64,000 bases of DNA from Bolinopsis microptera (lineage: Eukaryota; Ctenophora; Tentaculata; Lobata; Bolinopsidae): assembly GCF_026151205.1 (NCBI RefSeq), contig NC_087074.1, forward strand, positions 7,247,726 through 7,311,725, written 5' to 3'. The position numbers were made by a program, and so were the translations under genes. The notes beneath the pieces are model-generated. The model made no database searches. It had not been told where the DNA came from and saw nothing but the letters and a program-made list of their open reading frames with translations. Below, piece after piece: positions 4,028 to 45,728 of this stretch (positions within the stretch are counted from its first letter, which is position 1; each line of letters starts with the position of its first letter).

Positions 4028-4427
4028 ATGGTTTTTTCCCAATCAACTCTGATCCGCTCTTCCAAAACGTCTCCTATTACGGGTTATGAAAAGTTCCAGA
4101 AAGGTATATTCGACGTGTCTGAGTTGAAGTCTACCTTTTATATGCATTCTCCTGACAAGTCTTCTCCAGAGAAATCGGAAAGATCGTCACCAAGCTACAG
4201 CAACGGAAACACTCTAAAACACAGCAGCGAAAGCAAAAGCAGCTCAACCCAGCCGCCCAAAGTAGAGAGCAAGTCCCCGAGTTCGACCTCTACTTCTGTC
4301 GAGAACGGTTCACCCCGAAGCTCCTCCAACCCGCTCCAGAACTTCGTACCTAGATTTGCATTCGGCGGCGAGGAAGTCTCTGATTTTTCACCGGTTTCTT
4401 CATTTCCAGAATTCAACCTTCCCTCAG
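4028..4427 (+). CDS. CUT gene exon 1: start and Ser/Pro-rich N-terminus
   Basis: ATG at 4028 is the first Met after an in-frame TGA at 4019-4021, which fixes the start unless an upstream intron exists. It encodes residues 1-133, rich in Ser, Pro and charged residues (SPDKSSPEKSERSSPS), typical of a disordered transcription-factor N-terminus. The donor CCCTCAG|GTTTGA is phase 1 and joins exon 2 to give PSG-DDLDT. Without splicing the frame stops at 4444. Confidence 0.85.
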
Positions 4428-7400: not shown

Positions 7401-10400
7401 GTTTTTAAAAGATATTTTGCCAATGAGCAGTCCATTAAGCCTCTATTACGTGATACCCTTTTAACTTTAAAAACCTCCACACTCTGGTCTCTGTTTGTGT
7501 GCGGCTATAAGTACCTCTTGAAGGGGTCTTTGTCAATGAGTAATGTGTTTTTTCACCGTAAACTGTAGACATATTATGATAGATCGATCTAACTCCACTT
7601 TTTAAAGCTTGTCATTTTATTTTACTTGTGTTTTTACTCGTGTGAGTTTGGCAGTATATTTATTTTTCTCAGTTGAAAACTTTTCCTGAAGTTAGAGAGA
7701 AAGTTGGCGAGGTATAAAACCAGGCAGTGATTAATCAGTTAGTAATAAAGTCATTGTTCTGGTTATACCACTCTTTTCACCCTCTGGGTCAATCCGCACC
7801 AAATAACCGCTATTCTAAAGAAACAAACTTATTACTGCCGCAATATCTGCTCTGTTTCCATGGTTACAGCTGAAATTGTGGCAGTGTTTGGTCTAAACCA
7901 TTGACACTAGCCGTTCAGTAACTTTCCCTGCCATTCGAAAACAGCACACGACACTACCACGTGACACTGTTTCCTGGCTTGTTATTGGTTGAAAGGGATG
8001 AGCAACACCCCATAATAGATGATGTGTCTAGACCCACCAACACTCTTGTAGGACTTCACTAAGTTGGAATATTGATTTGGGAAGGGAGCGTGTTGTTCCT
8101 CTTATTATAGAGCTGATCATCTCTTTATTCCATTATCTCCTCCTTCTCTTCCTTAGTCTCTTCATTATCAGCTCCTCTGTGTTTAAATACGTGTTAATAG
8201 ACAAATACTAATAGTTTTATCTGACATTTTTATGAACATAGATAATTTGGGCATTTTAAAAAGAGTAGTTTAAAAGTGTTTAAATCATTTCAATCAACAG
8301 CTATCGGTTTCACGGACACATGGATGAAGTCTTATATACATTTGTGGTTACATGAATAATATCTAACATGTTACCATGGTTACAGGGGATGATCTAGATA
8401 CGATATCGATAGTAAATTCTCTGAAGCAGAGGATGAAATACGAAGGATTGTCTCAGACGAAAGTAGCGAGATCTCTTGGTAAAGGACAAGCGACAGTTTC
8501 CCAGATTTTAAACGTGAGTTCCCATCTCTTTACATAGTAGCCTGTTGGAATTGGCCCCTGAGATGGATAAATAGTAATATCAGTTCCATTCAGTGAAATC
8601 AGAGGCCGATTTGATCAGACAAACCTTTATTATATAAATATTTAATCTCTGTCTATTTCAACTTTAATTATGATTAACTGCTTAACAGCTTCTTAGATTT
8701 GTGTATTATTTACCGATATTTGGGTAACTTAGATTTACTTAAACTTAAATTTACAACATTTACTATCAACTGCGGCTTACCATTTAACCACAAATAATGG
8801 TACAAGTATGCAGCACTATTTATAACTAATAATTTAGGTTAGCATAGATTACAATTGCGGTATTATTATTTATTAAATGTGAGGTATGTGGCGTGGTATC
8901 CATCTGTTTAAGAAATATTCCTGTCACCTAACAACCAGACCCCTGAAATCGTGAATAAAACTCCGGTAAAATGAAAATTGCATATGGTTTATGCATACTT
9001 CTCTCGGCGACCCGACATGCTTGCATAAATTAGAATAATTCATTGGAGCGTATAATTCAGCGTATGAATTGACGTTAGCTAGCTAGCGGGTGGGTCACGT
9101 GACCGGCGTTATAACACCCCCCTTACAATAATAGCATGTCTCTCCCTCACCAACTCTGAACTTTGTAAGTTTCCCTCTAATTCCTGCCTCCCCCTCTGAT
9201 TTACAAGCACGCAAGCACAATGTGAACTATTTTGCCTTTAACTTCTCGCTCTCTCTCTCCACCTCCTCACCAAGTGTCAAATATCGCACCTATAACGCTC
9301 CCGCCAATCAGACAGCCGGATTGGAGTCACGTGGTGTCACGTGAGCGCCCACGTGCACAGTCTCCCCTATAGAAACTGTAAACAGTTGATATTTGGCAAG
9401 TGAGGGGCTGTTCGAGTTGTGCTGATCAATCGTAAGCATAACGTATCACTTGACAACGCGTATAGGAGTCATCCTGCCTCCTCGTCCTCTTCTTCTGCTA
9501 TAGTGTTATCGGTGTAGCAGCTCTACATGTTACACTACTTCTAGTTTACTTTTAGATTCCGCGCTCTTATTTCTCGTTATTGTTATTTTCACTGTCTGGG
9601 TTCCTCTCACTTTGCTTCCCTCGTATCTACTTTCTCTTGCCAGGTTCGTTTTTAGCTCTCAGCTCTTCAAACATTTGTTGTTTACTCGCACATATAATTA
9701 TACGGCTAACTTGTTTGTTCGATCCATATCTTTTTCATATGAAAAACAGAGGCGATGATATCTTACCAGTTATCGATATTATAATATGGAAAATAGTGCT
9801 GTAAATGTGAGAATATCAGTTCTATTCCCGTTCTATTGGTTTGACTAGTTTTGAACACTTCTCATTTTCTCACTTTCCTTCTAGTTATGTGTTTGCGACG
9901 ACAGAGTTTTAAGTTCTAATTTAAAATTACAATCGTATCTTTGTAAGCTTGCAAAACTCTCCGTTCAATAACCCAGCCCACACGTTTCCATGGTAACCAC
10001 ATAATCACGTGACGTTGTCATGGGTACAATGGCAGCAGCTCTAAACCACAGATATCCTTCATAACAATCAGATAGATAAACAGATAGTCTGAGTATTTAG
10101 ATATTTAGTTAGTAAAAGTGTACTGTATTGTTACTCTTACCACAGTTTTACTAAAACATAGTAATTCTCACCAATATTTGTGAAAATACCCAAAACCATG
10201 AGACTATTTGTTAATACTCCGCCTACACGCTAGTGAATAAAATTTCACTAATCGCACTTTATAGGGTAAAGATTTTTCAGTAAAAGTTAAGAAAACATTG
10301 AGATTTAATTGAAGTTTTATCAATAGCTGAACAACGCCCCAGTTAAGTTAAGTGCAAATTTCGGTCCATTTTTACAGTAAATAAAACACATTCCGTTTTA

Positions 10401-13400: not shown

Positions 13401-16400
13401 AATTGTCGGTTTTGCAACTAAGTGTTATGTTTACCCCTCCTGCTTTCTTCCTAAGTGTGGTATTCTGGCGTTATAAAATATTACGGACGTTTTTTCACAG
13501 TAATATTAAAATATATAAGAGGAGTAATATTAAAAGTGCGCAATAGTAACACTTATAATATCATATTATTCGACTATCTTATTTTATTCTTATATTATTA
13601 TCTTACAATGTTATTATTTAATAATCAATATAATTAGTTATCAATATAATTAATAATCAGTGATAATTAGTAATAATTAGCAATCAGTCGGACGTTAGTG
13701 AACGTTATAATAAACCACATCATAGTATAACCTTCAGAATCCCAAGCCTTGGGCTATGCTGACAGAGAGAGGTAAAGACACCTACAGACTACTCAAACTT
13801 TGGCTAGATCAACAAAGTGAGTCAACATAATATGTAGAGGGATATTTTAGTGACTTGTTATGTTTTTAAGTATTCGAAACATTTGACTTTTTGTAATTTT
13901 TAACTGACAGTTATTGATAAAATTGTATAAAACATTCTTTAAAAATACTTCGGCTAGATCAACATCATGTTCTGTTTTATAACCTTTGTTTTTGTTGCAG
14001 TGTTGAGTGAAGGAGAAGAAGGTAAAACCGCATCTTACGACGAACGTTTACAAAAACTAGCTTCCGTAACCGGACTACCCATTGACCAGGTCAGAAACCA
14101 ACTTGTCGCCCTTCTAGCTAACTACTTTCACTTTTAGCTAACTACTCTCACTCACGTACTTACTTAACCACCAATCACAGTCTCACTCACAACTATCTCC
14201 AGTCTCTCAGACTCACTCAGATCTATTCCTCGTCACATGACCCGGTCCTGATCACATGACTCAGTCACCAGTCACCCGACTTGCTTTGTAGTGTCTACTA
14301 GCGGGAGAGAGACGTCAGATTATTTCTGCGACACTCTTCTTCCCTCTCTCTCACATTGTCAGCACCGTCTGTCACTCACCTGACATGCCCTTATTTGGAC
14401 ATCATGTGACCTGACGTCACACCAATTGTTTTTGCGTCAAACTATTCGCTCTAATTACTTCAATAGGCAACTAGTTTCACAAAACGAGTAAACTTGTCTC
14501 TACCAACTAGAAGTAGACGTCTCTTTAAATTTAGTAACTCAGCCAAACAATGTTATATTCTCTTGAAACAGTTGACTAACTCAGTCATTTCAAAAGTAGC
14601 CAAATAATCCATTGTCCTAAAACGTTTTACTAACTGCAGTATTCTCCTGAAACTAACATTCCCTTACATTCCCTCGGCTCTCCCTTCGAAACCAATGAAT
14701 AATATTAGATCTTTAAGTTAGATCTGTCATTACATTATAGTCCCATCATATCACTGTTGTTGGTCGGGCCATGTACCGGATATATTATGTGATACCCTCA
14801 AAAGTGTCCTGAGAAAATGGGGGTGATCCTCTACTGTATGGCCCCCCCCGGCCTCCTTAACTCCACAACTTCCTAACACTTGTCCCATCCTCAGGTACAG
14901 AAGTGGTTATCGTTCCATTCTCAAGACGTTACATCACCCCACAACGGTAACGCTAGTCTCTGCGACAGCTTCAACATGAAGCCTGATATTGAGAACCATA
15001 CCTCACCTCTTTTTAGAGACTCTCCAAAGAACGACATGTTGCTGGATCTTACTCGCATTCGCCTCAAAGGTTTGTTGAACTCTTTCTAATCATTTTTTGG
15101 GATATATTTCTTTTTAGTGTGATAACTTGTTTGACACAAAATTTAATCCATTTTATTTGCTTATCGGCAAACGATGACCGAGTCTTCTGAAATAAAACCG
15201 GCTATTAATATAACCGTTAAGTCGTTATCAGTGATATGATAGCGTTATCGAAATTAAAACTAAAATAACGGCCATGTACAATTATTTTATATGAATTGCT
15301 ACATATTATAGAAATTTAATTCAGTTACCAAATCTGAGAAAACATGCAAATTACACATTATAAACTGGTAGTACAAGATCTATGTCAATTGATTGGATAT
15401 ATATACATATATACAATTCTTTTTTGTGGTTTGGAGACAATATTTCAGAAGTTAAACCTTATATAAAAGGTTCAACTTCTGGAATATTGTCTCCAAACCA
15501 CAATCTCACTATAATAAACTGTTATCCCACATCTCATCTTGTCTCATCTTGTGTCTGGGTGTCTAGAGGGTGTCTCTGTAAAGTTAGCACCCAGTACCTG
15601 GTACTGTATCTGAATCTAATAAGTTCAAGTAGGTTGGAATTAGTTCAAGTATTCCACCTCAGTACTCCCAGTAACTACACCCCTGCCCCATTTCACCTGC
15701 CCCTCCAGTATTTCATTAGTGAAGCTCCCACCATAAAATTAACCTCTGATACTATTGACCGATTAGATTGACGAGGATTTAACATTACATTAGGGTGCAG
15801 CATTCAGTCCTTCTTTATTCGTTTATGTTTCACCCCAATCCTAACCTTCAAAACGCATTATAGACCATACTGTCCACCCCACAGACCTGCCCACGTGTTC
15901 TTATCTCAACCACTCAGAGCTGCGCACACGCGTCACATGACTCGTTAACATGCCCACGTGACATGAAGTCGGTAGAGTTGGGGCACCTCCCCGACTACCC
16001 TCACAACGTCACACTCCATTGACTCTCACTTCGCTCCATTGCGAGGTTGAAATGATTGTAATTCTGGGTAACTAGATTTTCCAGTAGTTGGTTGGGCACG
16101 TTAAAACAGCTGGGCAGTGAGGTGTCCCCGGCCTAATCAGATCTGCCAATTGTAGGTCCCATTAGTAGACCAGGAGGGGGCCTGTGATTGGTCAGCAGTG
16201 CAAATACACGTGGTATTAGGGTCACGTGACATGTATCTGAGAGTGGAATATTACTAGGATTCTGTGCTTGAGAGATAGTTAAAGCGGTGTAAACAATAGA
16301 GTAGTAGTCGCACTGTCTGCCTAATCTAACACTTAATCTAACACTTGACGACTTGTGAATATTACAAGACTGCTACAGGTGGAGGCAAAAGGTGTTGTAA

Positions 16401-34400: not shown

Positions 34401-37400
34401 GGACTCTTTCAAAAGGATATCTTCATTCTAGAGAAAATTTAATCTACAAGTATAAGCTGGGTATTCACCAGAATCTGCAATATTATTTAGCAAATTGTGC
34501 GATGTTTCCATTCCTCGGTTGCAACATTGCCAGACGTCACGGATTTTATATCAGAACCTGTTTTCATATCAAATAAGTGTTAACGTGGTCTAGACTCTTC
34601 ATTAGATCACATGGGCTGTGATCCTCTCTCTGATTGGTCCACAGCAGGAATACTGCGCTGTGATTGGCCGAGAGGGGGACTATTGGTTGGAAGGTCGGTG
34701 AAGTGAATGAGAATGATTTGCTCAACACTTCACCGTTCATTGTAATCTAATTACTTGAAATATTCGCCACTCGACTGTGTCCTGTGTTGCAGGCTATCAC
34801 GACAGTGCGAATTGCGAGAGGACCAGTAACTGACCAGTAACTGGTAGTGACCAGTGATCTGGTTTAGTTGATGGGCTAATCGTTATCAGGATGTGTATTT
34901 GTATAGACCCCTCTCCATTATCACCCTCCCTCACTCCTGCGTCTGTAAACTACTCCGCCCACCAATAAACACTCTTAACACTGTTAACTCCACCAATATT
35001 ATACTGTATCGAGTATCCGCGTGTGAAAATTGGTAAATAAAACACCACGTGACAGTTGATAAAGTCCCACGTGTGTGTCTTGATAAACTGACCATGTCTG
35101 AAACAATGCTATTTCTAACTCAGTTCTGGTTCTAACATCCTGATAATGGAATGAGTGGGGTATGTATTTCATATGGGAGCCTGTCTGGTATGGGTTCAGT
35201 AATACCACGTGATATCAGAAACAGTATGAGTTGTGCGTTATCACGCGGGCGAGATCACATGACCGACTCGTTAGGGCCAGACTGACAATGCGTTAATAGT
35301 TTAAATCTATTATATCTCCCACTTTGTATTACTTTTATCACTACCATCAAGTCCAGCGAGCCTTGTCAACCCCGTCTGAGGGGAACAGAACATGAAGTGA
35401 GAGTGTCCGGATAAATCAGACCTACTGTCAGAGCAGATGTACTTCATCTTATTTATGCTATTTACATGTGAATTTTGAAACCAGGAATCAGGAATCGGGA
35501 TACCACCAACCATCACATTTTTAGTTATAGGATCATCCCTCATTAAACTCACCAGCTCATAACGATAGCACTATAACTCCATAATATTGTTCTTTATTAA
35601 CTAAGATAACACTAGACTAACTCAGATAACACTATATTAAGTCAGATAGTAAACCAATAAAGCTCACTAAAACTAGTCTGATAAACCAGCCTCTATCAGC
35701 CCCTCTAACCAGTCTGTTAACATCAGTATACTAACCATCCTCTCTCTCTCTGCAGGCTATACCAGTCTTAGAGCACGAGTTTAAACTCTACAAAGGAGCA
35801 CCCCCCAAGATGGTCAAGGAAAAGCTTGCGGAGGATCTAGGCTTGGAGTACTGCACTGTAACCAATTTCTTTTCTCACTGCCCTTCATCCAACTCTCTCT
35901 TTAAAAACGATGGTTAGTTAGTTTAAAGTTAAAAGTTATATTATAGTGGCGTTCCTTGATTAATTGTTTGCCTCGACAGATTCTGTGATAGCTTAACCGC
36001 TGCTGTATTCATAGATTTTCGGGCGAAGGTTTGTCTTTAAAAGTCAGAATTAGTACCACAGTCGACAGATATCTGATAGTTCATGTCAAGTTTCCTTAAT
36101 TGAGTTACACATAAACTGGGGGTTGAATGGAGTAACTATCAGCAATGCCAACCTCAAATGATTCGGCTTCACAGAGCTTTAAAAGTCCTTTCCTCTAAAG
36201 TGACAATACACAAAGTAAGTAACAGATAATAGAGCCAGAAATAGAGACTCTGATAACTCCTCACCTACCGTCCTATCACTCTCGTCATACCTTTTGTAGC
36301 ATTGTCCTCCTCAATTCCTCATCAACTAGTCAATACCTTCCCCTCCTGCTGGTAAAATATAGCTTACCTCATCAACTAGTCAATACTCTCCCCCCCCCCC
36401 CCTAAAATATAGCTTATGTGCACACTGGTAAAGCTATGCAGCGCTTATCTGACCTTCACCGATACTCCAAATAACACCGAAAATCAGCGTTAACATTTTG
36501 GTATGCAGAGTTTGTTAGTGGATAAAAGTTAATAAAAGGAATGTATCTTGACTCGGCGGTTATTTTAAATATGCGTGGTCACTCGATAACGTAAACATTT
36601 AAACCTAACCTTTGATTCGTTAGAAAGTGCTAAGTAAACCACCATGACCTGTTCGACCCAATTCAGACTTTTGAATTAAACATATACAATGAGGTCTGAT
36701 CTTCTTGCAGCTTGACTCGCCAGTAATTTGAAATGTGCGTGATAACTAAGGTTAAGTTATAAGTGATAGAACGTACTGTTCACTAACCTCCACAGTGCAG
36801 AACTACAGACCAGCTAACGAACTAATAGTAATCCCCGACCTGAAAATATGTTCTCATTTCTTGTAAAAACAAATGTTAACACCAGGTATTTCGAGATCTG
36901 TTTGAGTCTGCGCCACCCCTATCATAGCATCATAAACATCCCTACTCCTTTATAATAGTGTTGATTGGCAGTCTGTTGACTGTGTACCGCCCATTAGCTA
37001 CTAAAGGTCGGCGCCCACGTGATAACGCGCAACTCCACCGATAATAACATTACCTAGCTACTAAAATCATTATCCACATAACAGTAAGAATACAGTGTTA
37101 TACAGTGAATAGCACGTTATTATCCATAATGTGGTGGTTTTATCAGAGGATCTGAAACCGTAAATCTGATTGACGTGGAACAGTTTACAGTTCGTAAGAA
37201 AACTGCTATTGTTACCAGGTTAAGTCTCAGTATGGAGACTAGTAACCACGTTAATCAGGGTGAAACATTACAGACAGTATCAAGGTTATGAGTATATTAG
37301 AAATACTGTAAAAAACAGTATTAAAACTATAAATCTAATCGTCCTCTTTATTTCAGTGACATACAGTTCGTGCCTGCCCACCATGGTGAAGTACCCCTCC

Positions 37401-40400
37401 CCAATGGACACCCTGCACAGCTTCAAACCTGACTTCCACCCCCAACTACCCCCTCTGAGCCCAATGGGCCGGGTACCGGGGCTCAGTCCTCTACACACTC
37501 TCACTGCTCTTCATAGCCAGGAGCTACAGGTACGTTACTCCAGATAACTTCCTCAGAGGGGGGCTATCTGTGGGGCTTGGTGCTCACAGATTAGCGCTTA
37601 TAAATAATACATAGCGTAAACAACATAATCGGTTAATTCCTCCTCAACAATCTTTCTCTTTTACTCTTTTAGAACCTGCCAAAACGTTTTCACAAAATTA
37701 AACTCCACTTTGCCAGATTATAGCTTTGTCCCAGTCCCAGATGTTTATACCCTCCCACTATCTAAATACTCAGCAGGCAGCACCTATCTAGATTCCTAGA
37801 CCCTACTTAGTAGACCCCTAAAGTTCCATTAAATTTCAGAACGGCTTACTTGGACGATCCAAATCGTTCTTATTAGACGCAAACAAAGAACTGGACACAC
37901 TGAAGATTGTCGCTGCTCTCAAGAACAGACTAAGACTATTAAACATCTCCCTACACACCTTTATTGACAGCGTTCTGTTGAGGAAACACAATGGCACCAT
38001 GGTGAGTTACACAGTGGGTAATCTAGTGGGTAATCTATTGAGTAATACTCACTACTCACTACTCACTACTCGCACACTCTCTGAGGTCTGAGTATGTAAT
38101 GGTAGATGATGCTTTACTAAAACAAGAGTGAGATATGGATGAACTCTTCAAACCTCGTTACTACCAAACAAGCACCCCTTATTGGAAATAGTTTTGAACA
38201 CCACATTCTGGATAACACGATCAAATAGATAAGAATAAGTTTGTTATCTCTACTTAAAATGATACATATACTTGTACGTGAGCTACAACCAGGACGGACA
38301 CTAATAACGCACTATCCCCTGCAGGTGACCCTGAACGATCTGCTGCTTCACCCCCGACCCTACATTACACTAAACCCGCACCAGAAGGAAGTGTTCCTCA
38401 CCATCAACCACTGGCTGGATAGACAACCGGCTGAACAACTCGCTTCTATCTCAGCTTTCAAGCCTTTCGGTGAGGATTCTTTTGTCTTCTCTGCAACTTT
38501 AATCTCTATCATATACTTGGACTTATTGAGCAATCTGAAGTCTGAATAATCCTGACATGTTCTACAAATACCACTCTGACATTACCTCCCTGTTCCTCCA
38601 CTTAATATTACATATATTTCAGACTCGTTGTTGTTCAGCAGCATGGAGATGACAGAGATTCAGAACATCATCTCCGAGACTCACAAGTTTCTGAAGCAGT
38701 ATAATCTATCACAGGTATCCACCAATAAACTCAGCTCTTCATAAGCTTGACCCTCATTCGTCGTACCTTATTGGTCCGAAATAAGTTTTCATTCTCTCAA
38801 CTTTTATTGCGAACTTTCAATTGCTGAGCGAGAGAACGAATAAGATGAATGAAAACGTACCTATCAATGATCGAATAATTTGCAAAGATTTCATTTTTGA
38901 ATAAATCTATTTTTTTAATAAATTCCCTGGCTTCTTATAAAGCTTCGAAATGTTTGAAAACGAAAGTTAAATCTAACGAATGATACGTAGATTCATTTTC
39001 TCACTAATTTATCTACCCCCTGTTTCACTTTCACTAACCCTCTTTCTCTCCCCAGGACAGGTTTGCTACCAGAGTACTCTCAGTCAGACCGGAGGTGTTG
39101 CAGGACCTTTTCAACTCAGCTCCCCGGACCTGGACCCAGCTGACTCACGAGCAGAGGAACATCTGCCACATCCTGAGGGAGTGGATTAATGACAAGGACA
39201 AGTTCGCTCTCTTCCTCGACAGCCAGGAGAGGTGAGAGAGAGAGAGAGAGCACACTTTACTTTTCAATATTCAGTAATATTCAGGATAACTTTCACTGAC
39301 TGTTTTATCGCTTCTTTTACGTGGAAAACCTTTCATAAAACTTCTAAATTCTGCAAGTTTCAATGGGCCTTATCGGCCAATGACCTTATCGGCTAGATCA
39401 GCATAAAATATCTTAATATTGTAACATTCAGCAGTGCATTAAAAGTGTTATATTTACCCCCTTGATCTCACAATGGTAGATTAAGCTACTGTGAAGATTC
39501 AGGCATTTTAAAACTGCTAATTGAGATAATAAGGGCGTTTATTGGCCTTATTGAGAAAGAGCAGTGGACCATTATCTGGGTAGACTACTCGACTGGATAG
39601 AAGGGCCGTGATAAGGTTCATTTAATGGGAGACGGACAAATTCCACCGTAAAAAGCACGGTAGTAGCGCGGCAGGTCCCTTGTATTGAGGGTGTTATTGG
39701 TAATAAGAGGATTATGTGAGGGGTTTTAACAGTCTCTTTTCTCCCTTATCAGCAGCACGCCTAACTGTTCCGATAGTAACGCAACAAATCTAATTACCCG
39801 GATTATTGCAATTTTAATTCGGGGTATTTAGAATAGGGCTCAACGGTTATCATCACTTTCCAATAAGATGGTTCGTGATAAGAGGGTAAAGTGAGCGGTT
39901 CCGTGATTTTTAACACTGCACACAGCTGCATTGTTCTTCGGAACTGAACACGTGCGCTGAATTCATGGTCGTCACGGTACTGTTCACTACTGTATCCGTG
40001 ACATCTAGCCTCCACGTGAAGGGCAAGCCGATAAAACAATCCGTGAACTTGACGATAACAACCGATAAGCAGGTTTAAACCAACCAGTCACCTGTTTACC
40101 TGGTCACTTACTAACATTATGTGTTTCAGCAAGTCTCCTAAAGTGTCCAGAACGTCTCCCTTGCCCAGTGGTAGTAGAACCGGGAGTGCAGCTAACCCCT
40201 TTATCTTCCCCAACACTTCAATGGTGAGTTTAACAACTAAATATTTCCGATCTACTTCATGTACAGTTTACAACTGGTTTCTGGTCCGTCCAGGTTCAGA
40301 CACGGAGTTGTGGAGCTTCTGGTGAGGCCCAGGAACTGGTAGCGGTCTGGTAGAGGGAATCCTCCCCCCCCCCAGTCTCCTGTCACGTGTTAACCACGTG

Positions 40401-43400
40401 ATAATAAGGTCACGTGATGTCCAATAACCGGTCGCAGGGTTGACTCATAACGGCGCGCGCATGGTCCTCCTTTATTGGAATTACGCTCAGAATGATTGAA
40501 AATCCCTCCCACATCTTTGCGTCTTAAACAAAACATATATACAGTTCTCGGAGTTGAAATTGTGATTATAATTTTAACAGAGTCTTTTGAAATCCCAACA
40601 AATAACGAATGTCCTGCCCCAGGTAAAAACGACACTACCAGTGATAACATCCAGCCTGCCTCTTAGTTTGAGCAGTGGAGTCTGTCTTAACAGTGGAGTC
40701 AGTACTCCCTCCGTCCGCAGTCCACCTACAACTATCATCCAGACTCTCGCTACATCCTCCACCAGGTATGTTTTTACCACTTTTACCACTTTTACCACTT
40801 TAGCTACTGCTTACTGGGTTGTATTTGCCACTTAATACCACAGTCACCCACATTTCACGACACGATAGCTATTTCAAAAGATCTTTAGAACTTCTGGTAT
40901 GCGACAGTAACAGTTACTAAATACATTACTTCTATTAGCTGAACTGCAAATCTAGCCAACAATAAGGGTCGGAACTGTACTGCTAAGTTTTCAGCCCGCT
41001 TACTATTTGGCATATCTATCACCCTATCCCAGTATACATTTCACATGGCCCCTTTCCCTGCTCCGAATCTCCATATTCGCATTAATAATACAGCAATGAC
41101 ACCTACCTAACGGCTCCCTCCCAAATATTGACAAATACAGTGCTTATAGTTCTATTAAATCTATACCTGTACCTCTGATTCGCTGCCGGTGGTCCCCGAG
41201 TTTGACGAATTGTTGGCTATTTAGAGTAGAGCACGGCTGGAGAGTAGTGAAAAGGAGAAACATTAACAGTTGCTACATTAAATGTCAGTAGTGCTAATCT
41301 TACCTGCAATTAAATTAGCATCAATTGGAGGTATACATTAAGACAGCCAGAGACTGTGTCACCACGTCGCACCCCCTATTTTACAGTGCCTAATTGGGTT
41401 ACTAGATATATCTATATTTTGTTGTGGCCCCACGGGGCTCAGACGCGTGCACTGCTCCCCGCAGATAGGCACTACTAATTAATTTAATGGACACACTTAC
41501 TACTACTAGATTAAATAGGGGACTTGTAAGGCTTTCAGTATGGAAGCTTTCTAACGACAACTTGGGGCTAATGAAGATTGACTTTTCATCCGCCGATATT
41601 AAGTCCTGAAAACGTTTTGACCACTGATTTTAACCACAAATTTAATAAAAGGATTAGGTAAGGATCCGGGTTAGCGTTTTGTTAAAACAAGACGTGTCTA
41701 ATAATCATGAATATTAAGCAGGGGTGTAGGAATAATACCCCTGATATTAAGGGCTTGGTACTTTGGGCTAAGTTGTAGCTCACATTGGAGCGGTAAAAGC
41801 CGAAGCTCCTCACTTATTTGTGGTAGGATCTGCAAAATAAAGTAGATAATTCTCAGCTAGATAATGTGGTAATACCAGTATTATATCCACAGCATATATC
41901 CACATACACAGTTAGCATTATATCCACATGGTAGTCCTATTACTTTAGTGATATAAATACGGTGCTGATACTTTTAGCAAGTTTTCTCTCCTATTGTCCT
42001 GCCTTATAATATAACCCGCTGCTTAGTCTCAAATACTGGCGAGAACTGCGAAGAAGAATAATCCCAGATACTGTGTGCAGAGGTAGACAATACTCCTTCC
42101 ATCCCATGATTGCATTAAGAGTGCAGATAGTTTACTGTACTAGCTTACTAGCTATTATACTGCAAGGCTACTAGCTGCGTATTAAGTGCGTGGTTACTTG
42201 CTGCGACCTGTGAATTGTGATGAGTAGTTGCCACAAACTTCTCGTGAGGCTAGTGAGTTGTAATTGTCTTATTATCCTGTCTGCAACGTGTAGATTTAGT
42301 ATACAGCATGTGGTAAATAACACGTGTCTTATTTTGACGTTGCAAATAAAATCTGTGACGTCACGCGACGTGAAGTGTGACGTCTCCCGTCACGCCACGT
42401 GACGTCATAAGATGTTCGAGAATACTCCGTGTTTTTTTTTGCATCCTGGCTCGTGCCTCCAAGAAATGGGCCGAATGTGAAGACTGCACATGCGCCAACT
42501 GCGATCTGAAGTCCTTACAATAAATAACTAAATTAGACCCTTACGTTCGATTGTTAAACCTGATTCTTGAAAATTCTGTTAGATTTGACGAGATTAACAA
42601 AAGAAGGAGGCTTGTTAACAGGATGTTAATCAAGTGTAGAGAATTAAAGGAATCAAATTAATGAAAATACTCTGATTTTCCGGCCATCATCAGGTGTTTG
42701 TGACTGACCACGTGACACAGTACTTCTTCCTGATTGGAGGGCCAGACTCGGCTGTGGTCGCTGATTGGCTAACTGTGGTTTCTATCAGACAGTGTCTAAC
42801 TTGATTCCATAAAACAAGAAAACACCTAGCCACTGAAAATCTGGGTATTGTTTAGCTTTTACTCGAGTACTATTCCCTGAGAGCAGCCTCTACTTTATAA
42901 GTGTAGTGAGGACAGGATTAATTTTAGGAACAAATTATGAGAATAAATCAATCAGTTGTAAAACTCTATCCCTCATCTGATTACCGTGGTTATTATTATC
43001 ATTACCATTGTTAAAAAGAGAATCTCACCCACACCCTTCTCAGAGAGGGAGAGAGAGAGAGAGAGAGAGATGTTTTTACAAGTTTACAGTGTCTTCGTTA
43101 GAGCGTGAAATGTAATTATGGTTGAAAGTTTGGATCTATCTTTGGTGGCTTATTCTGTTCGTGTAACCATTACAGGTGGAAAGTGTTATAGAGCGCTGTA
43201 GAGCCTGAGATACGTGCTTAACCACTGGCAAACGCCCCTACAATACTCGAACACATATTCTTCCAATACTTGCAACACTTACACATATACTTCCAGTACT
43301 TACAACACTGATAAATACTTACAATACTTCCAATACTGATAAATACTCGGGGGGATTGTACGAGGTTTGACCCTCCCCTCTTGGCTTTTGTTAAGATGTT

Positions 43401-45728
43401 TTAGCAATCCAGATAAAATCGTAGACTCCATCTCCCATCTCTATTATGAAATCTATTAAACTGCCTCACCAATACGCTAGTATCTGTTTAGCTACCTACT
43501 GTTTAGCTACTTACTGTTTTAAGAGCATCACATCTTCCAATATTAATCAAATTTCACGGACCAGTAAACCGATTACCTAACAGTGAGACGCTATTTTAGC
43601 AGAATCAACTCAGCCAACTGAATCTTATGTTAGAATTTATCAACCATATTACTGACTAACCCATCACTATCTTCATAATCTGCTTCTTTATCAATCTTTA
43701 TCATCTTCATAATTGTTATACTCCGTTATCAATAAGTCAAGAGCTATAGCCATAGCACATACATAGTCAGCTTATATAAGCTGTATCAAACAGAAAGAAC
43801 ACTAGTTTAGCAATATTCTATAAAGTTATTGCTCTCTTGCAAAATATGCGAGATTGTGCGTAGTTATCTTGAATAGTGACACTGTACGTTGATGTCTAAT
43901 ATCCGAATATTACATAGTTATCTTATAGTTTGTGGACGATATATAAATCAAAATAGTAAGTTAACAGTGTCCCAACTTCAGTGTACCTGCGTTTAAACTG
44001 GGAGAAGAAGGAAGAGAAGAAGGAGGTTCCACGTCTCCCTCTAACGGCACTGTAAAGTGCGAGCAGGGCAGCTCACCTATGGAGACCTCTCCCAGCAAGA
44101 TCAACAGCTGTCCTAGGGACTTCTCTCCTAAGGTAAGACTTGGGTTCTCTTTGGGGTTAAGTCTCGCAGTAAAGCCAACTGTAGTCACTACCTTCTATTT
44201 CCATTTTTCCCTTTATTAATAAAGTTATGAACCTCAAAATCTGCCTCTAAACCACTACCTCCCTGTTATAGTCCCCAATATAACGTATATCCCCTTTAGT
44301 CGGACAAGTCAGATGGAGGAGGATCAGTATCCTATCCCAGCTACACGGAGCAGACGAGAAGTGTAGGTTCCCAGAAGTACCCAAGGCAGGAGTGTTGTCA
44401 TGAAGCTTTCCACGTAATGTTACAGCACGTCCGCGAAACCAGCTCCAAGAATCTCATGCTTTGCAATCGTGAGTATTGTTTTTCAACTGGTTTAGTTTTG
44501 TTTTGTAACGGTTACTTTGGTGATGATGTTAGGGGCCCACTTCCCCAGACAGGGCCCAGAGAAAATTTGATTTCAAAATTCTTCCTGATACTGGGTTCCT
44601 TTTTAATTGTCGTCTCAATTATCGGAATCATCCGTCGGGATAAGGAAACAAAATTTTTAATAAAATCAGAGTTTGCAAATTTGAAATATGCGTTATAATT
44701 CGCTCTTAGTTTAATTAATGCATTATATGAGTTATTTGAAATGTAAGTTATGTAGCACGTCACTCTCTCGTGCTCATTGTTTATTACAATCGTGGCCCAG
44801 GATTTCCGTCGAACAAATGTCGATTAAATGACAAGAATGACTTGTATTCGACGCGCTGGAATCCAGCCAATTAATTCCTCCATTAGCTCAAAGTTCATAG
44901 CACATAGCTGCTTGTCACGAAATATTCTTTAGACGTGATTAAATGGGACTGATAATCAAAATATTGCAAATATGTTTCGATAAGATGAACTGCTCGGCGA
45001 GCTTGTCGCGTATTCAGTAACAATGGAATTCCTGCACGCCAAAAGTAAACAAAAATCCGCTAGTTTTGTGAACTGTTAAGTATTGAGTATTGATTTTTAC
45101 TCTGCATTTCTCGGGCAGCATGCCAAGTTAACGAACTTACGCGTCACGTGATTGCACGTGGGCTGTTTTTCGCGTGCACACTGTTTTCCGATAGATAAAA
45201 TGATTTGTTACGATTATCAGACGTTTTAACTTTCAATTCGAATAAAACCTGCGACCTGTCAGAAGGTTCTAAAATACTAGTGGAGTTCATATTTTATATG
45301 ACGTTAGTAATTAAAACAATTGATATTAATTTGACAAATTGATTGAACAAAATAACTAATCAATAATAATTTCAGACCTGGAGCAGATTTATAAACATTT
45401 AGCGCCCGTCAAAAGAGATCGGACATGGACTTCCCCAAATACTGGTAAGTTGAAAACTATTTAAGTTTCAGTATTAATATTTTTAAATAATCTGCATAAA
45501 CATTACCCTTAATATTACCCTTGAATTTCAAGTCCATCTAAAACAGGACCATAGAAGGACTGATAAGCAGAAGGGCTATTGAATAACCAACTATATTTGC
45601 CACCTATTTAAAAAATGCCTCTATAAGAACTAATAAGCGTAAGTAGTAGTGAATAACCAGCTACCTTTACAGAGACTGACCTGGACAACCCAATGAAGAG
45701 AATCAGGATGTCGTCCCCTAACAGCTGA
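4028..45728 (+). CDS. four-CUT-domain nuclear protein (whole gene, 20 coding exons, 919 aa)
   Basis: Twenty exons with GT-AG borders join without a phase conflict into 919 codons plus TGA. Order: Ser/Pro-rich N-terminus (1-133); CUT1 (135-202) with DLDT, GQATVSQ and NPKPW; a homeodomain-like half (about 211-243); CUT2 (306-372) with KQATLS and HPKPW; a degenerate homeodomain (392-434); CUT3 (518-590) and CUT4 (612-685), both diverged; a Ser/Thr/Pro-rich region (693-850); and a basic KRIR near the end (910-913). CUT domains bind DNA in Onecut, CUX and SATB proteins, usually with a homeodomain. Here neither homeodomain-like part keeps the WFxNRR helix. A role as a nuclear DNA-binding regulator is inferred from CUT1/CUT2. 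The architecture matches no CUT class I know (CUX three CUT plus homeodomain, SATB two, Onecut one). Some exons could be missed or alternative. Confidence 0.88.
4428..8385 (+). other. CUT gene intron 1
   Basis: A 3.96-kb intron with no coding exon that I can support. It carries a group of X-box-like palindromes: GTTACCATGACAAC near 5860, GTTACCATGGCAAC near 6160, GTTGTCATGGTAAC near 6705 and GTTGTCATGGCAAC near 6821. It ends in TTACCATGGTTACAG, so one such motif overlaps the 3' splice site. Confidence 0.6.
8386..8513 (+). CDS. CUT gene exon 2: CUT1, first part
   Basis: Encodes residues 134-176: DDLDTISIVNSLKQ, GLSQTKVARSLG and KGQATVSQILN. This matches the CUT helices 1-3, including the Gln of the recognition helix (GQATVSQ). 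The acceptor is GGTTACAG and the donor AAC|GTGAGT, phase 0. Confidence 0.93.
8514..13737 (+). other. CUT gene intron 2
   Basis: A 5.2-kb intron that splits CUT1 just before NPKPW. Apart from the 44-bp purine-rich minisatellite (12134-13178) it holds a group of CACGTG sites near 9095-9355, further ones at 10005, 10550 and 11823, and several CCATGG-centred palindromes (9986, 10845, 10921-10950). No coding exon is visible. Confidence 0.6.
12134..13178. repeat. 44-45 bp purine-rich minisatellite, about 23 copies
   Basis: The plus strand is almost pure A/G. Units contain GGAGACTAGGAGAGGACTAA followed by AAGGAGGAGATTGAGA. Three variants at the GAGATAGGAGTAGG, GAGACTGGGAGTAGG and GAGATATGAGGAGG position occur in blocks rather than at random, showing stepwise local amplification. 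It lies in intron 2 of the CUT gene. Confidence 0.97.
13738..13816 (+). CDS. CUT gene exon 3: CUT1, second part
   Basis: Encodes residues 177-202, NPKPWAMLTERGKDTY then RLLKLWLDQQ, completing CUT1 with the diagnostic NPKPW turn and the last two helices. The acceptor is ACCTTCAG and the donor AACAAA|GTGAGT, phase 1. Confidence 0.93.
14001..14089 (+). CDS. CUT gene exon 4: start of homeodomain-like segment
   Basis: Encodes residues 203-232, including SYDERLQKLASVTGLPIDQ, which fits homeodomain helix 2 and the turn. The acceptor is TTTGTTGCAG and the donor GACCAG|GTCAGA, phase 0. A full helix 1 is missing: only about ten residues separate CUT1 from this segment. Confidence 0.85.
14090..14894 (+). 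other. CUT gene intron 4
   Basis: About 800 bases with no coding content. A short GGCCCCCCCCGGCCTCCTTAAC at about 14841-14862 resembles the end of the palindromic element at 22798-23534 and could be a fragment of the same family. This is weak. Confidence 0.5.
14895..15069 (+). CDS. CUT gene exon 5: end of homeodomain-like segment and linker
   Basis: Residues 233-290. It begins VQKWLSFHSQD, in the place of homeodomain helix 3 but without the WFxNRR motif, followed by a polar linker (NHTSPLFRDSPKND) and LLDLTRIRLK. The acceptor is CATCCTCAG and the donor CAAAG|GTTTGT, phase 1. Confidence 0.87.
15070..17356 (+). other. CUT gene intron 5
   Basis: A 2.3-kb intron containing the near-perfect 80-nt hairpin at 15424-15503, plus CACGTG sites at about 15893, 15953, 16207 and 16221. 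No further coding exon is visible. Confidence 0.6.
15424..15503. ncRNA. near-perfect 37-bp hairpin, candidate microRNA precursor
   Basis: The arms at 15424-15460 and 15467-15503 are complementary over 37 positions, with one G-U and one A-C pair, closed by a loop of six bases (ATATAA). Size and shape suit a microRNA or small-RNA precursor, and it sits inside an intron of a plus-strand gene. A small inverted-repeat insertion is the alternative. The hairpin is seen directly; any processing is inference. Confidence 0.5.
17357..17401 (+). CDS. CUT gene exon 6: short linker exon
   Basis: Forty-five bases, residues 291-305 (EEDILDLFKRAPDCE), between acceptor TTGCATTTCAG and donor GAAG|GTTCTT. Phase 1 on both sides joins exons 5 and 7 exactly. 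It could be an optional exon because its length is a multiple of three. Confidence 0.75.
17402..19036 (+). other. CUT gene intron 6
   Basis: A 1.6-kb intron with CACGTG at about 18370 and 18380 and no coding exon. The last part contains a second, unusable AG at 18963, after which all frames fail before CUT2. The accepted 3' site is CTTCCTCTCGACAG at 19036. Confidence 0.55.
19037..19138 (+). CDS. CUT gene exon 7: CUT2, first part
   Basis: Residues 306-339: EEISGEVRREIEKHSISQG then MFSQKILRRKQATLS, a clear CUT helix 1-3 segment close to Onecut-type CUT sequence. Phase 1 on both sides. The open frame runs about 70 bases past the donor CAG|GTTCGT but loses similarity there, which supports the donor. 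Confidence 0.9.
19536..19734. repeat. 21/18-bp minisatellite with CACGTG in the long unit
   Basis: Ten units: eight of 21 bp (CACTTCACACCACGTGCAGT plus A) and two of 18 bp (CACTTACCACCTGCAGTA). The order is 21,21,18,21,21,18,21,21,21,21, a partial 60-bp higher-order repeat. Only the 21-bp units carry CACGTG. Open frames seen across it on both strands are repeat artefacts. Confidence 0.95.
21857..21957. repeat. 31-bp tandem repeat carrying inverted CCAAT boxes
   Basis: Three copies of GATTGGCTGATCGGGTAGAA plus TACAGCGCTCT, each with ATTGG (inverted CCAAT). A degenerate fourth copy lies just upstream. Confidence 0.9.
22798..23534. mobile_element. 737-bp full-length palindromic element flanked by TTAA (MITE-like)
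   Basis: The left arm 22798-23159 and right arm 23178-23534 are near-complete reverse complements over about 360 bases, separated by 18 bases (AAAAAATCGTAAAAAAAC). The ends read TTAAGGGGGCCGGGG and CCCCCGGCCCCCTTAA, so TTAA can be a target-site duplication, as used by piggyBac-type transposons. There is no coding capacity. Few mismatches between the arms suggest recent insertion or conversion. It is in CUT gene intron 7, so transcription would give a long double-stranded hairpin. Assignment to piggyBac is inference from TTAA only. Confidence 0.8.
23831..23886. repeat. 7-bp tandem repeat (AGTAGTG)n
   Basis: About eight copies of AGTAGTG, the last with one change. The reverse complement of the same 7-mer occurs as a short array at 38040-38068 in intron 11. 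Confidence 0.9.
24771..25109. repeat. 29-bp minisatellite, about 11.7 copies
   Basis: The unit is TGCCTCAACTGAAGGTCACC then AGTGGTTCT, with scattered substitutions such as TGTCACAACTG. In intron 7 of the CUT gene. Confidence 0.95.
25869..26774. repeat. 36-bp minisatellite, about 24 copies
   Basis: The unit is TTCACCAGCCTCCCCCAGTT then CAGTGTTTCACCCTAC, preceded by three copies of the 11-mer TTCACCGTACT. A three-base-shorter variant (CACCACATCCCCCAG) occurs near both ends of the array. Because 36 is a multiple of three and the unit has no stop, all three plus frames are open for more than 300 codons. These are not genes. Confidence 0.97.
31111..31192. repeat. 26-bp tandem repeat with GCACGTGC
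   Basis: Three copies of TTCTGCACGTGCACATTCAT plus GGTACT. Each holds the palindrome TGCACGTGCA. Confidence 0.92.
31468..31507. repeat. 10-bp tandem repeat (AGTAACCACT)n
   Basis: Four copies. The unit differs by one base from the 10-bp unit (GTTACCACTA) of the array at 60481-60782. Confidence 0.85.
32436..32457. repeat. 22-base poly-G run
   Basis: An uninterrupted G run in intron 7, able to form a G-quadruplex and prone to length variation or sequencing error. Confidence 0.9.
32765..32911 (+). promoter_or_regulatory. 20-bp tandem array of CRE (TGACGTCA) and E-box (CACGTG)
   Basis: About seven copies of TGACGTCACATCACGTGTCA. Seven perfect TGACGTCA sites occur exactly 20 bp apart from 32784 to 32904, with five CACGTG between them; the last two units lose the E-box (CATCTTTTG, CATCATTTG). 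TGACGTCA is the CREB/ATF site and CACGTG a bHLH-ZIP site in animals. The array ends 48 bases before exon 8. It is a candidate intronic enhancer or internal promoter; function is inferred. Confidence 0.6.
32959..33113 (+). CDS. CUT gene exon 8: CUT2, second part
   Basis: Residues 340-391: EALCHPKPWGRLSDRGK, then LIYCFMKLWLLLPDERR, then a linker ending RQIPTQ. It completes CUT2 with the HPKPW turn. The acceptor is CATCCTTTCAG and the donor ACTCAG|GTTAGT, phase 0. Confidence 0.93.
33114..35755 (+). other. CUT gene intron 8
   Basis: A 2.6-kb intron with CACGTG sites near 33205, 33222, 33896, 33932, 35044, 35068 and 35206, and a 32-bp tandem duplication at about 34093-34155 (AGACTAGAACTGTGAGTGAA). 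It ends with a strong CT tract. No coding exon is visible. Confidence 0.55.
35756..35912 (+). CDS. CUT gene exon 9: degenerate homeodomain
   Basis: Residues 392-443: AIPVLEHEFKLYKGAPPK, MVKEKLAEDLGLEY and CTVTNFFSHCPSS. The spacing fits homeodomain helices 1-3, and LGLEYCTVTNFF is close to the Onecut helix 3 entry (LGLELSTVSNFF). The basic NARRR part is replaced by SHCPSS, so specific DNA contact by this helix is doubtful. Acceptor CTCTCTGCAG, donor GATG|GTTAGT. Confidence 0.9.
35913..37356 (+). other. CUT gene intron 9
   Basis: A 1.4-kb intron with no coding exon. A tandem duplication at about 36318-36416 repeats TCATCAACTAGTCAATAC and TAAAATATAGCTTA, the second copy with a 13-base C run. 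One CACGTG lies near 37016. Confidence 0.55.
37357..37529 (+). CDS. CUT gene exon 10: Pro/His-rich linker
   Basis: Residues 444-501 (VTYSSCLPTMVKYPSP ... PLSPMGRVPGLSPLHTL ... SQELQ), a low-complexity Pro/Leu/Ser linker between the homeodomain-like part and CUT3. Acceptor TTTATTTCAG, donor CTACAG|GTACGT, phase 0 out. Confidence 0.85.
37840..38001 (+). CDS. CUT gene exon 11: CUT3, first part
   Basis: Residues 502-555, including ELDTLKIVAALKNRLRLLN then ISLHTFIDSVLLRKHNGTM. The CUT helix 1 pattern (ELDT..I) is clear, but the recognition-helix QGT is replaced by HNGT. Acceptor AAATTTCAG, donor CCATG|GTGAGT, phase 0 on both sides. Confidence 0.9.
38002..38324 (+). other. CUT gene intron 11
   Basis: Contains a short ACTCACT array at about 38040-38068, the reverse complement of the 7-mer repeat at 23831-23886. 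No coding content. Confidence 0.5.
38325..38469 (+). CDS. CUT gene exon 12: CUT3, second part
   Basis: Residues 556-603: VTLNDLLLHPRPYITLNP then HQKEVFLTINHWLDRQPAEQ. HPRPY stands where NPKPW is usual, followed by the terminal helices. Acceptor CCCCTGCAG, donor TTTCG|GTGAGG, phase 1. Confidence 0.9.
38623..38714 (+). CDS. CUT gene exon 13: CUT4, first part
   Basis: Residues 604-634, DSLLFSSMEMTEIQNII then SETHKFLKQYNLSQ. This matches CUT helices 1-2 (TEIQNIISETHKFLKQYNLSQ aligns with the usual T..I...I...L....I.Q). Acceptor ATATATTTCAG, donor TCACAG|GTATCC, phase 0. Confidence 0.85.
38715..39055 (+). other. CUT gene intron 13
   Basis: A 341-base AT-rich intron that ends in a long pyrimidine tract (TCTTTCTCTCCCCAG). 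Nothing else seen. Confidence 0.5.
39056..39231 (+). CDS. CUT gene exon 14: CUT4, second part
   Basis: Residues 635-692: DRFATRVLSVRPEVLQDLF, NSAPRTWTQLTHEQRN, ICHILREWINDKDKF. APRTW occupies the NPKPW position, and the recognition helix lacks the Q-G/A-T motif. CUT4 is the most diverged repeat, yet hydrophobic spacing is kept. The donor GAGAG|GTGAGA runs into a (GA)n tract at 39229-39250. Confidence 0.88.
39232..40129 (+). other. CUT gene intron 14
   Basis: Begins with a (GA)n tract and otherwise shows only single CACGTG sites near 39948 and 40012. No coding content. Confidence 0.5.
40130..40223 (+). CDS. CUT gene exon 15: Ser-rich linker
   Basis: Residues 693-724 (SKSPKVSRTSPLPSGSRTG ... 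IFPNTSM). Several SP pairs could be phosphorylation sites; this is inference. Acceptor GTGTTTCAG, donor CAATG|GTGAGT. Confidence 0.82.
40224..40622 (+). other. CUT gene intron 15
   Basis: Carries three CACGTG sites within about 30 bases (40384, 40396, 40409). No coding content. Confidence 0.5.
40623..40765 (+). CDS. CUT gene exon 16: Ser/Thr-rich region
   Basis: Residues 725-771 (VKTTLPVITSSLPLSLSSG ... TPSVRSPPTTIIQTLA ... SSTR), low complexity. Acceptor GTCCTGCCCCAG, donor CACCAG|GTATGT, phase 2. Confidence 0.82.
40766..43981 (+). other. CUT gene intron 16
   Basis: A 3.2-kb intron with (TTTTACCAC)n at the start, GA repeats at about 43041-43070, short AATACTTCC/AATACTTAC repeats at 43245-43345, and a CG-rich stretch with CGTGACGTC and CACGTG at 42355-42405. 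No coding exon is visible. Confidence 0.55.
43982..44132 (+). CDS. CUT gene exon 17: acidic and Ser-rich region
   Basis: Residues 772-822 (VPAFKLGEEGREEGGSTSP ... SPMETSPSKINSCPRDFSPK). Acceptor CCAACTTCAG, donor CTAAG|GTAAGA, phase 0. Confidence 0.83.
44300..44468 (+). CDS. CUT gene exon 18: C-terminal region
   Basis: Residues 823-878 (SDKSDGGGSVSYPSYTEQ ... ECCHEAFHVMLQHVRETSS, KNLMLCN). The second half looks helical and may belong to a small C-terminal fold continued in exon 19; I do not recognise it. Donor AATC|GTGAGT, phase 1. The frame stays open to 44698 if the intron is kept. Confidence 0.85.
44469..45375 (+). other. CUT gene intron 18
   Basis: A 907-base intron. Its first 230 bases are in frame with exon 18 and would add a tail with a hydrophobic stretch, probably by chance. 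CACGTG occurs at about 45145 and 45155. Confidence 0.5.
45376..45444 (+). CDS. CUT gene exon 19
   Basis: Residues 879-901 (HLEQIYKHLAPVKRDRTWT, SPNT). Acceptor AATAATTTCAG, donor ATACTG|GTAAGT. Phase 1 on both sides. Confidence 0.82.
45673..45728 (+). CDS. CUT gene exon 20: end of protein
   Basis: Residues 902-919 (ETDLDNPMKRIRMSSPNS) and TGA at 45726-45728. KRIR may act in nuclear localisation. The acceptor is CTACCTTTACAG. Confidence 0.84.

Follow-up and report, generated by a model that had tools for sequence, protein, structure and literature searches.

CUT-class proteins and their reported distribution in early-branching animals

Several families of CUT-class proteins have been described. 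According to the available text of PMC10515288, proteins of the CUX family contain three CUT domains and a homeodomain, and those of the ONECUT family contain one CUT domain and a homeodomain with phenylalanine at position 48 (F48). SATB proteins are composed of a ubiquitin-like CMP domain, a CUT-like domain, two CUT domains and an F48 homeodomain. The same source places in the CUT class the COMPASS proteins, which have a CMP domain, no CUT domain and two divergent homeodomains with a 10-residue insertion, and it mentions the amphioxus gene Acut as a CUT-class gene with a unique domain structure.

The distribution of the class among early-branching animals has been reported in homeobox surveys. 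In the available text of a 2010 survey (PMC2959044), no CUT class is recorded in the ctenophore Mnemiopsis. The genes of that survey were retrieved by TBLASTN with bilaterian homeodomains, together with earlier PCR finds, and its table also gives a minus for the CUT class in the sponge Amphimedon, in Nematostella and in Trichoplax. One putative CUT gene of Nematostella is listed in another study (PMC1779571). A domain-based reconstruction (PMC5560861), as far as its available text goes, names CUT as one of the homeobox families found in novel animal transcription factors.

The DNA segment of the ctenophore Bolinopsis microptera analysed in this study (64,000 nucleotides, hereafter the window) carries, on its plus strand, a split gene extending from position 4,028 to approximately 45,728 (the CUT gene). 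The order of units originally predicted for its product, i.e. CUT, half homeodomain, CUT, homeodomain, CUT, CUT, was found again in our analysis and matches none of the CUX, ONECUT, SATB or COMPASS layouts given in the available text of PMC10515288. The four CUT domains are designated CUT1 to CUT4, and the two homeodomain-like pieces HD1 (between CUT1 and CUT2) and HD2 (between CUT2 and CUT3). Judged by its CUT domains, the gene is a member of the CUT class, while its layout places it in none of the named families CUX, ONECUT, SATB and COMPASS.

Structure of the gene

The main part of the gene model comprises 13 exons (4028-39231; 677 codons), joined by 12 junctions, all of which are in phase and have GT/AG borders. 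Seven of the 13 (exons 2, 3, 7, 8, 9, 11 and 13) were the first-ranked splice candidates of their stretch, exon 4 was the second-ranked and exon 5 the fourth-ranked, and we fixed the borders of exons 1, 6, 10 and 12 manually. Since several borders were picked with the frame in view, the agreement of phases supports the model but does not amount to a clean statistical test. The splice-site weights were generic, i.e. untrained on the Bolinopsis genome. A codon-usage score, for which three glutamate-receptor ORFs served as the training set, gave a weak separation of the exons (0.06 to 0.28 bits per codon), and the gene model therefore rests on splice borders, phase and domain matches.

Exon 1 (4028..4427) opens with a start codon at 4028 and encodes a Ser/Pro-rich N-terminus. 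Its open frame ends in phase with exon 2, at a weak donor (score 1.0). A comparison with Pfam revealed no recognised domain in this exon, the sole listed match being DUF908 at E 0.4.

The part of the gene located downstream of exon 13 is represented by four likely exons, all on the plus strand. The first of these (40583..40765) is Ser/Thr/Pro-rich and has a strong donor and a poor acceptor (score -3.5); its start was set by hand in order to hold the frame, as position 40581 scores better but breaks it. The second (43982..44132) is in phase with the first as placed and has a strong donor. The third (45376..45444) has an open frame and a strong donor, and needs a small unplaced exon ahead of it to hold the frame. 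The likely last exon (45673..45728), which is in phase with the third, ends with ...DNPMKRIRMSSPNS and a stop codon; this is also the stop at which the earlier model ended. A dynamic-programming model of the tail, consisting of ten small exons, was judged unreliable, and only 43982-44132, 45376-45444 and 45673-45728 were retained from it as likely.

The original prediction of 20 exons and 919 residues was not reproduced. Our analysis supports 13 exons (677 aa), to which four likely exons of the tail are added, and one or more small exons of the tail have yet to be placed. The position of CUT1 (residues 135-202) is the same in both models, whereas CUT2, CUT3 and CUT4 now occupy residues 291-357, 502-575 and approximately 597-668, instead of 306-372, 518-590 and 612-685. 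This shift of about 15 residues, seen from CUT2 onward, originates at the exon 5/6 junction, and its likely source is that exon 6 began at 19012 in the earlier model. Position 19012 is a poor acceptor (score -0.25, with about 19 equally good sites per kb), and the acceptor at 19037 is much better. An in-frame TAG (19009-19011) is located directly upstream of a coding-like stretch, NFLST, that runs into CUT2, and the exon border (19012 or 19037) is ambiguous.

The four CUT domains

All four predicted CUT domains were identified, in order, on the plus strand. In the spliced protein, CUT1, CUT2, CUT3 and CUT4 score 58.4, 62.8, 40.6 and 37.3 bits, respectively, against PF02376 (gathering score 24.4). 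The last two values answer the question that had been left to an HMM search, namely whether CUT3 and CUT4 are to be denied CUT identity: both lie above the gathering score.

Each domain is encoded by two exons, and seven of the eight half-domain exons match PF02376 even when unspliced, over complementary ranges of the profile. CUT1 is composed of a first half with the LDT motif and the recognition helix GQATVS (exon 2, 8386..8513; profile positions 4-45, E 4.7e-5) and a second half with NPKPW...KLWLDQ (exon 3, 13738..13816; positions 46-69, E 2.7e-5), the latter being matched also in a genome-wide scan. The first half of CUT2 is encoded by exon 6 (19037..19138, 19037 being the preferred start and 19012 a possible one; 19012-19137 alone matches positions 4-41, E 1.9e-7), and the second half, with a linker, by exon 7 (32959..33113; positions 44-76, E 1.3e-5). 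CUT2 is interrupted by an intron of 13.8 kb, and its two halves therefore link the left-hand and right-hand portions of the locus with each other up to HD2. CUT3 is divided between exon 10 (37840..38001; positions 3-35, a weak match at E 0.035), with extra recognition-helix residues at its end, and exon 11 (38325..38469; positions 39-76, E 4e-5). The first part of CUT4 lies in exon 12 (38623..38714), of which 38625-38714 alone gives no PF02376 match, and the bulk of the domain in exon 13 (39056..39231; positions 28-71, E 1.1e-4).

A chance origin of the CUT matches was ruled out by a dinucleotide-shuffle control, for which an HMM was built from eight CUT sequences of solved structures and 40 dinucleotide-shuffled windows were used (89,130 ORFs in all). 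Six of the 2,062 ORFs of the window, scoring from 29.6 to 15.6 bits, exceeded the best shuffled ORF (12.5 bits). These six ORFs are the exons of CUT1a, CUT1b, CUT2a, CUT2b, CUT3b and CUT4b (a and b denoting the first and second halves); the exons of CUT3a and CUT4a, taken alone, did not rise above the ORFs of the shuffled windows.

Among solved structures, the nearest to both CUT1 (E 4.5e-10) and CUT3 (E 5.4e-4) is Cux-2. The natural CUT domains matched by CUT4, those of ONECUT2/HNF6, were found at about E 0.1 and ranked under designed repeat proteins (E 1.4e-5 to 1.4e-3).

We also inspected four columns of the alignment: a Q ahead of helix 2, a basic residue (K or R), the Q of the recognition helix and the S that follows it. 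From structural work on CUT1 of SATB1, we take these to be base-reading DNA contacts. All four are kept in CUT1 and CUT2. In CUT3 the R is kept, L and H replace the glutamines and N replaces the serine, and four extra residues are inserted. In CUT4 the first Q alone is retained, the other three columns being occupied by V, P and Q.

Homeodomain-like pieces HD1 and HD2

The presence of two homeodomain-like remnants, as originally proposed, was borne out, within limits, for HD2, while in the case of HD1 only a fragment comprising helix 2 and helix 3 could be recognised. HD2 is encoded by exon 8 (35756..35912) and scores 20.1 bits against PF00046 when spliced (E 5.8e-4) and 20.8 bits when the exon is taken alone (E 3.4e-4), with a cut-off of 22.9. 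It is a weak, ONECUT-like homeodomain that reads VTNFF and has F at position 48; the homeodomain numbering of HD1 and HD2 was obtained by alignment, with the help of homeodomain landmarks, on the 13-exon model. A single phmmer alignment (E 2.3e-14) spans CUT2 together with HD2 on one side and the CUT domain plus homeodomain of ONECUT2 on the other. A single-sequence AlphaFold2 model of HD2 contains three helices (mean pLDDT 67.6, i.e. low confidence). In a Foldseek search with this model, ONECUT2 and HNF6 hold three of the top four places, at E values of 0.56 to 0.91 that are not significant, and a match of the predicted fold to ONECUT2/HNF6 is suggestive at most.

HD1 is encoded by exon 4 (14001..14089), which contains a homeodomain-like helix 2, agrees in phase and has a strong acceptor, and by the start of exon 5 (14895..15069), which contains helix 3 (VQKWLSFHSQ) and a linker and also agrees in phase. 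Neither exon has a Pfam match when taken alone, PF00046 does not match the two exons spliced or singly, and no clear helix 1 could be discerned in exons 3-5. When exon 4 and the start of exon 5 were compared with the PDB at E up to 10, the eight chains listed were all homeodomain proteins (E 0.54 to 1.2). With no PF00046 match, a best PDB match at E 0.54 and an unseen helix 1, HD1 may well be a chance helix-turn-helix-like stretch rather than a remnant of a homeodomain, although we consider this somewhat the less probable origin. It is placed where a homeodomain follows a CUT domain, and all of the PDB chains matched, weak as these matches are, belong to homeodomain proteins. The split between exons 4 and 5 also argues against chance, since, by our numbering, it falls at the 44/45 intron position of homeodomains.

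The positions W48, F49, N51 and R53 have described roles in homeodomains, and N51 and R53 are presented as conserved and critical in the available text of PMC11832328. N51 is replaced in both pieces, by F in HD1 and by H in HD2, and R53 is replaced by S in HD1 and by P in HD2. These replacements suggest that normal homeodomain function has been lost in both, in line with the loss initially proposed, but contact with DNA may persist in a homeodomain that is devoid of N51, and HD2 may retain some of it.

A homeodomain that reaches the curated cut-off and is located after a CUT domain, as expected in the CUT class, was found in neither place. As HD2 scores under the PF00046 cut-off, N51 and R53 are replaced and HD1 is without a homeodomain match, the gene is filed as a CUT-class variant with homeodomain remnants.

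Comparison with the CUT families

The ONECUT proteins (HNF6, ONECUT2) resemble the CUT gene in the succession of CUT2 and HD2, which are aligned with ONECUT2 in one run, and in the F48 residue directly downstream of a CUT domain. They differ from it in having one CUT domain, whereas four are present here (when the locus is read as one gene); moreover, HD2 is devoid of N51 and R53 and is followed by two further CUT domains. With the CUX proteins (Cux-2, Drosophila cut) the gene shares tandem CUT repeats, and CUT1 and CUT3 are best matched by Cux-2 among solved structures, but the repeats number four, the homeodomain-like pieces lie between them and no terminal homeodomain was seen.

The likeness to SATB consists of more than one CUT domain and a divergent F48 homeodomain (PMC10515288). 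In contrast, for each of CUT1-CUT4 the three SATB repeats rank at the bottom of the eight solved CUT sequences by score. An N-terminal CMP domain of the SATB type was not found in exon 1 (the region upstream of 4028 may hold more exons), and the order of domains differs. COMPASS proteins share with the CUT gene their placement in the CUT class and two divergent homeodomains, but they lack a CUT domain, of which the gene described here has four.

A tree of CUT repeats grouped CUT1 with CUX and CUT2 with ONECUT and SATB, the latter with weak support (82/85) and therefore drawn as open, and placed CUT3 and CUT4 on long branches; the tree has 12 rows, eight of them from solved vertebrate structures, and is too small to settle descent. 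The growth of the gene by duplication of a CUT-homeodomain unit, as originally proposed, is unproven: CUT1 is nearest to CUX and CUT2 is nearest to ONECUT (with weak tree support), which is unlike what a recent duplication of a single unit would give.

These affinities could be read in another way, namely that the gene is a highly divergent representative of one of the named families (e.g. an ancestral CUX or ONECUT ortholog) and not a separate lineage of CUT proteins. CUT1 is indeed nearest to Cux-2, and CUT2 with HD2 is nearest to ONECUT2, with F48 as in ONECUT. However, different repeats point to different families, the tree leaves their grouping open, and none of the families has this number and order of domains, so that we regard such membership as rather improbable.

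One gene or two

We consider it reasonably probable that the locus is one ctenophore gene, whose product is a nuclear DNA-binding protein that combines four CUT folds with two decayed homeodomain pieces and acts in the manner proposed below. The two parts of the gene are joined in the model by exon 9 (37357..37529), which encodes a Pro-rich linker and is in phase with exons 8 and 10, with a strong acceptor and donor. The locus could also be divided into two adjacent genes, the first (CUT1-HD1-CUT2-HD2) ending just past HD2 and the second (CUT3-CUT4) starting at an in-frame ATG within exon 9 (37383). This ATG has a good context and lies within CCCACCATGG; read-through from exon 8 reaches an in-frame stop at 35915-35917; an AATAAA is present at 36531, with none in 45728-47200, past the stop of our model; and no domain bridges the interval between HD2 and CUT3. 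Two genes nevertheless appear unlikely, if by no means negligible as an explanation, because the acceptor of exon 9, located 26 bases ahead of the ATG, is among the strongest in the window (0.14 sites of equal quality per kb), and because the exon is in phase with the donor of exon 8, as befits an internal exon.

The divergence of HD1, HD2, CUT3 and CUT4 might alternatively reflect relaxed selection on the whole locus, which would then be a pseudogene or a gene losing its function. The typical contact residues are gone from four of the six domain units, and the TAG at 19009-19011 lies in frame just upstream of the first half of CUT2. This stop is, however, bypassed by the good acceptor at 19037, the 13 joined exons run without a stop or frame break and with GT/AG at all 12 introns, and CUT1 and CUT2 are still well conserved. 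A decayed gene is accordingly a very improbable explanation.

If the locus is a single functional gene, CUT1 and CUT2 would together bind DNA sequence-specifically, as both keep the base-reading residues of known CUT domains while CUT3 and CUT4 do not. The latter two, whose recognition helices are without most of the base-reading residues, and HD2 would serve mainly as structural or protein-contact modules, and HD1 would likewise be a structural or protein-contact unit. We infer this division, with CUT1-CUT2 as the DNA-binding part and the other four units in structural or protein-contact roles, from sequence comparisons. The protein would then regulate transcription via tandem CUT repeats, and not by the grip of a CUT domain plus homeodomain that is used by ONECUT.

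CUT genes in the Bolinopsis genome and in ctenophores

The search for CUT loci was extended to the whole assembly, which has 264.65 Mb in 232 contigs. All four scored candidates of a family scan and all 12 matches of a protein query are located inside the CUT gene, and no CUT match was found elsewhere in the assembly at the sensitivity of these searches, the family scan having also missed CUT3 and CUT4. It looks as though this is the only CUT gene of the assembly. A search of the whole genome for homeodomains (150 of 161 candidates scored) yielded 149 matches (E up to 1), all of them outside the CUT gene; 148 are located on contigs C1 to C13 and one on C27. Since the gene is missed by a homeodomain search here, a CUT gene with decayed homeodomains would likewise escape a homeodomain-based survey.

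In a literature search for CUT or Onecut in ctenophores, which covered few subscription papers, no title or abstract opening among the matches listed named a ctenophore CUT gene. The same was true of the matches listed in a search for four CUT domains, in which the phrase "4 CUT domains" occurs in a CUX1 study. The whole words CUT and Onecut are absent from the main text of the Beroe genome paper (PMC11184263), CUT, Onecut and Cux are absent from PMC7535936, and the available text of PMC7935009 mentions onecut for vertebrates only.

The gene is of greater interest because it was found in a group reported to be without the CUT class. The reported absence of the class from Mnemiopsis and Amphimedon forms part of a homeobox catalogue used for the early branching of animals, as set out in the available text of PMC2959044. 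Confirmation of the gene in several ctenophores would push the CUT domain back to the root of the animals, on the view that ctenophores are the sister group, and would call for a revised list of missing classes. The listing of CUT in the available text of PMC5560861 reduces the surprise of such a date, but not that of the four-CUT architecture.

A broader interpretation, which we advance only tentatively and with less than even confidence, is that the gene is the sole CUT-class gene of ctenophores and derives from a CUT gene in the last common ancestor of animals. Its product might have become a homeodomain-independent DNA reader, in which two CUT domains bind DNA and two became protein-contact modules. 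It would then represent a fifth kind of CUT protein, hidden by homeodomain-based surveys. The gene offers a natural test of specific DNA binding by CUT domains without a homeodomain partner.

Other features of the window and the genome

Several further features were observed in the course of the analysis. The introns of the CUT gene contain two tandem repeats, one at 12134-13171 (44-bp unit, 23.4 copies) and the other at 25890-26768 (36-bp unit, 24.5 copies, 97%). The latter gives rise to long but spurious open frames in each of the three plus frames, and the long ORFs at 25788-26995, which overlie it, were rejected as coding sequences. Within the large intron, a similar reading frame (LDFQNLRLKIARAIQLHIS...) occurs twice in inverted orientation, at 22781-23017 (minus strand) and 23320-23484 (plus strand). 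Neither copy has a Pfam match; the pair is perhaps a mobile element. A tRNA-Phe gene (gaa) is located upstream of the CUT gene, at 2627-2699. A Cys-rich frame at 60122-60430 (minus strand), which scores 23.0 bits against Ephrin_rec_like (cut-off 23.1), is probably part of another gene.

Elsewhere in the genome, five homeodomain frames with identical scores were found within 15 kb (G000:C9:1549413-1563968), likely a recent tandem array. There are also 32 matches to the ligand-binding domain of glutamate receptors, with groups on contigs C12, C6, C8 and C3, which suggests an expanded family. For one glutamate-receptor locus the best solved relative is a glutamate receptor of Mnemiopsis, a fragment of which, compared with the genome, gave matches of up to 80% identity; a second such locus gave no match in the PDB at a limit of 1e-60. 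A search for nuclear receptors by their zf-C4 domain yielded no match, as did its control. The genome also contains 18 matches to innexins.
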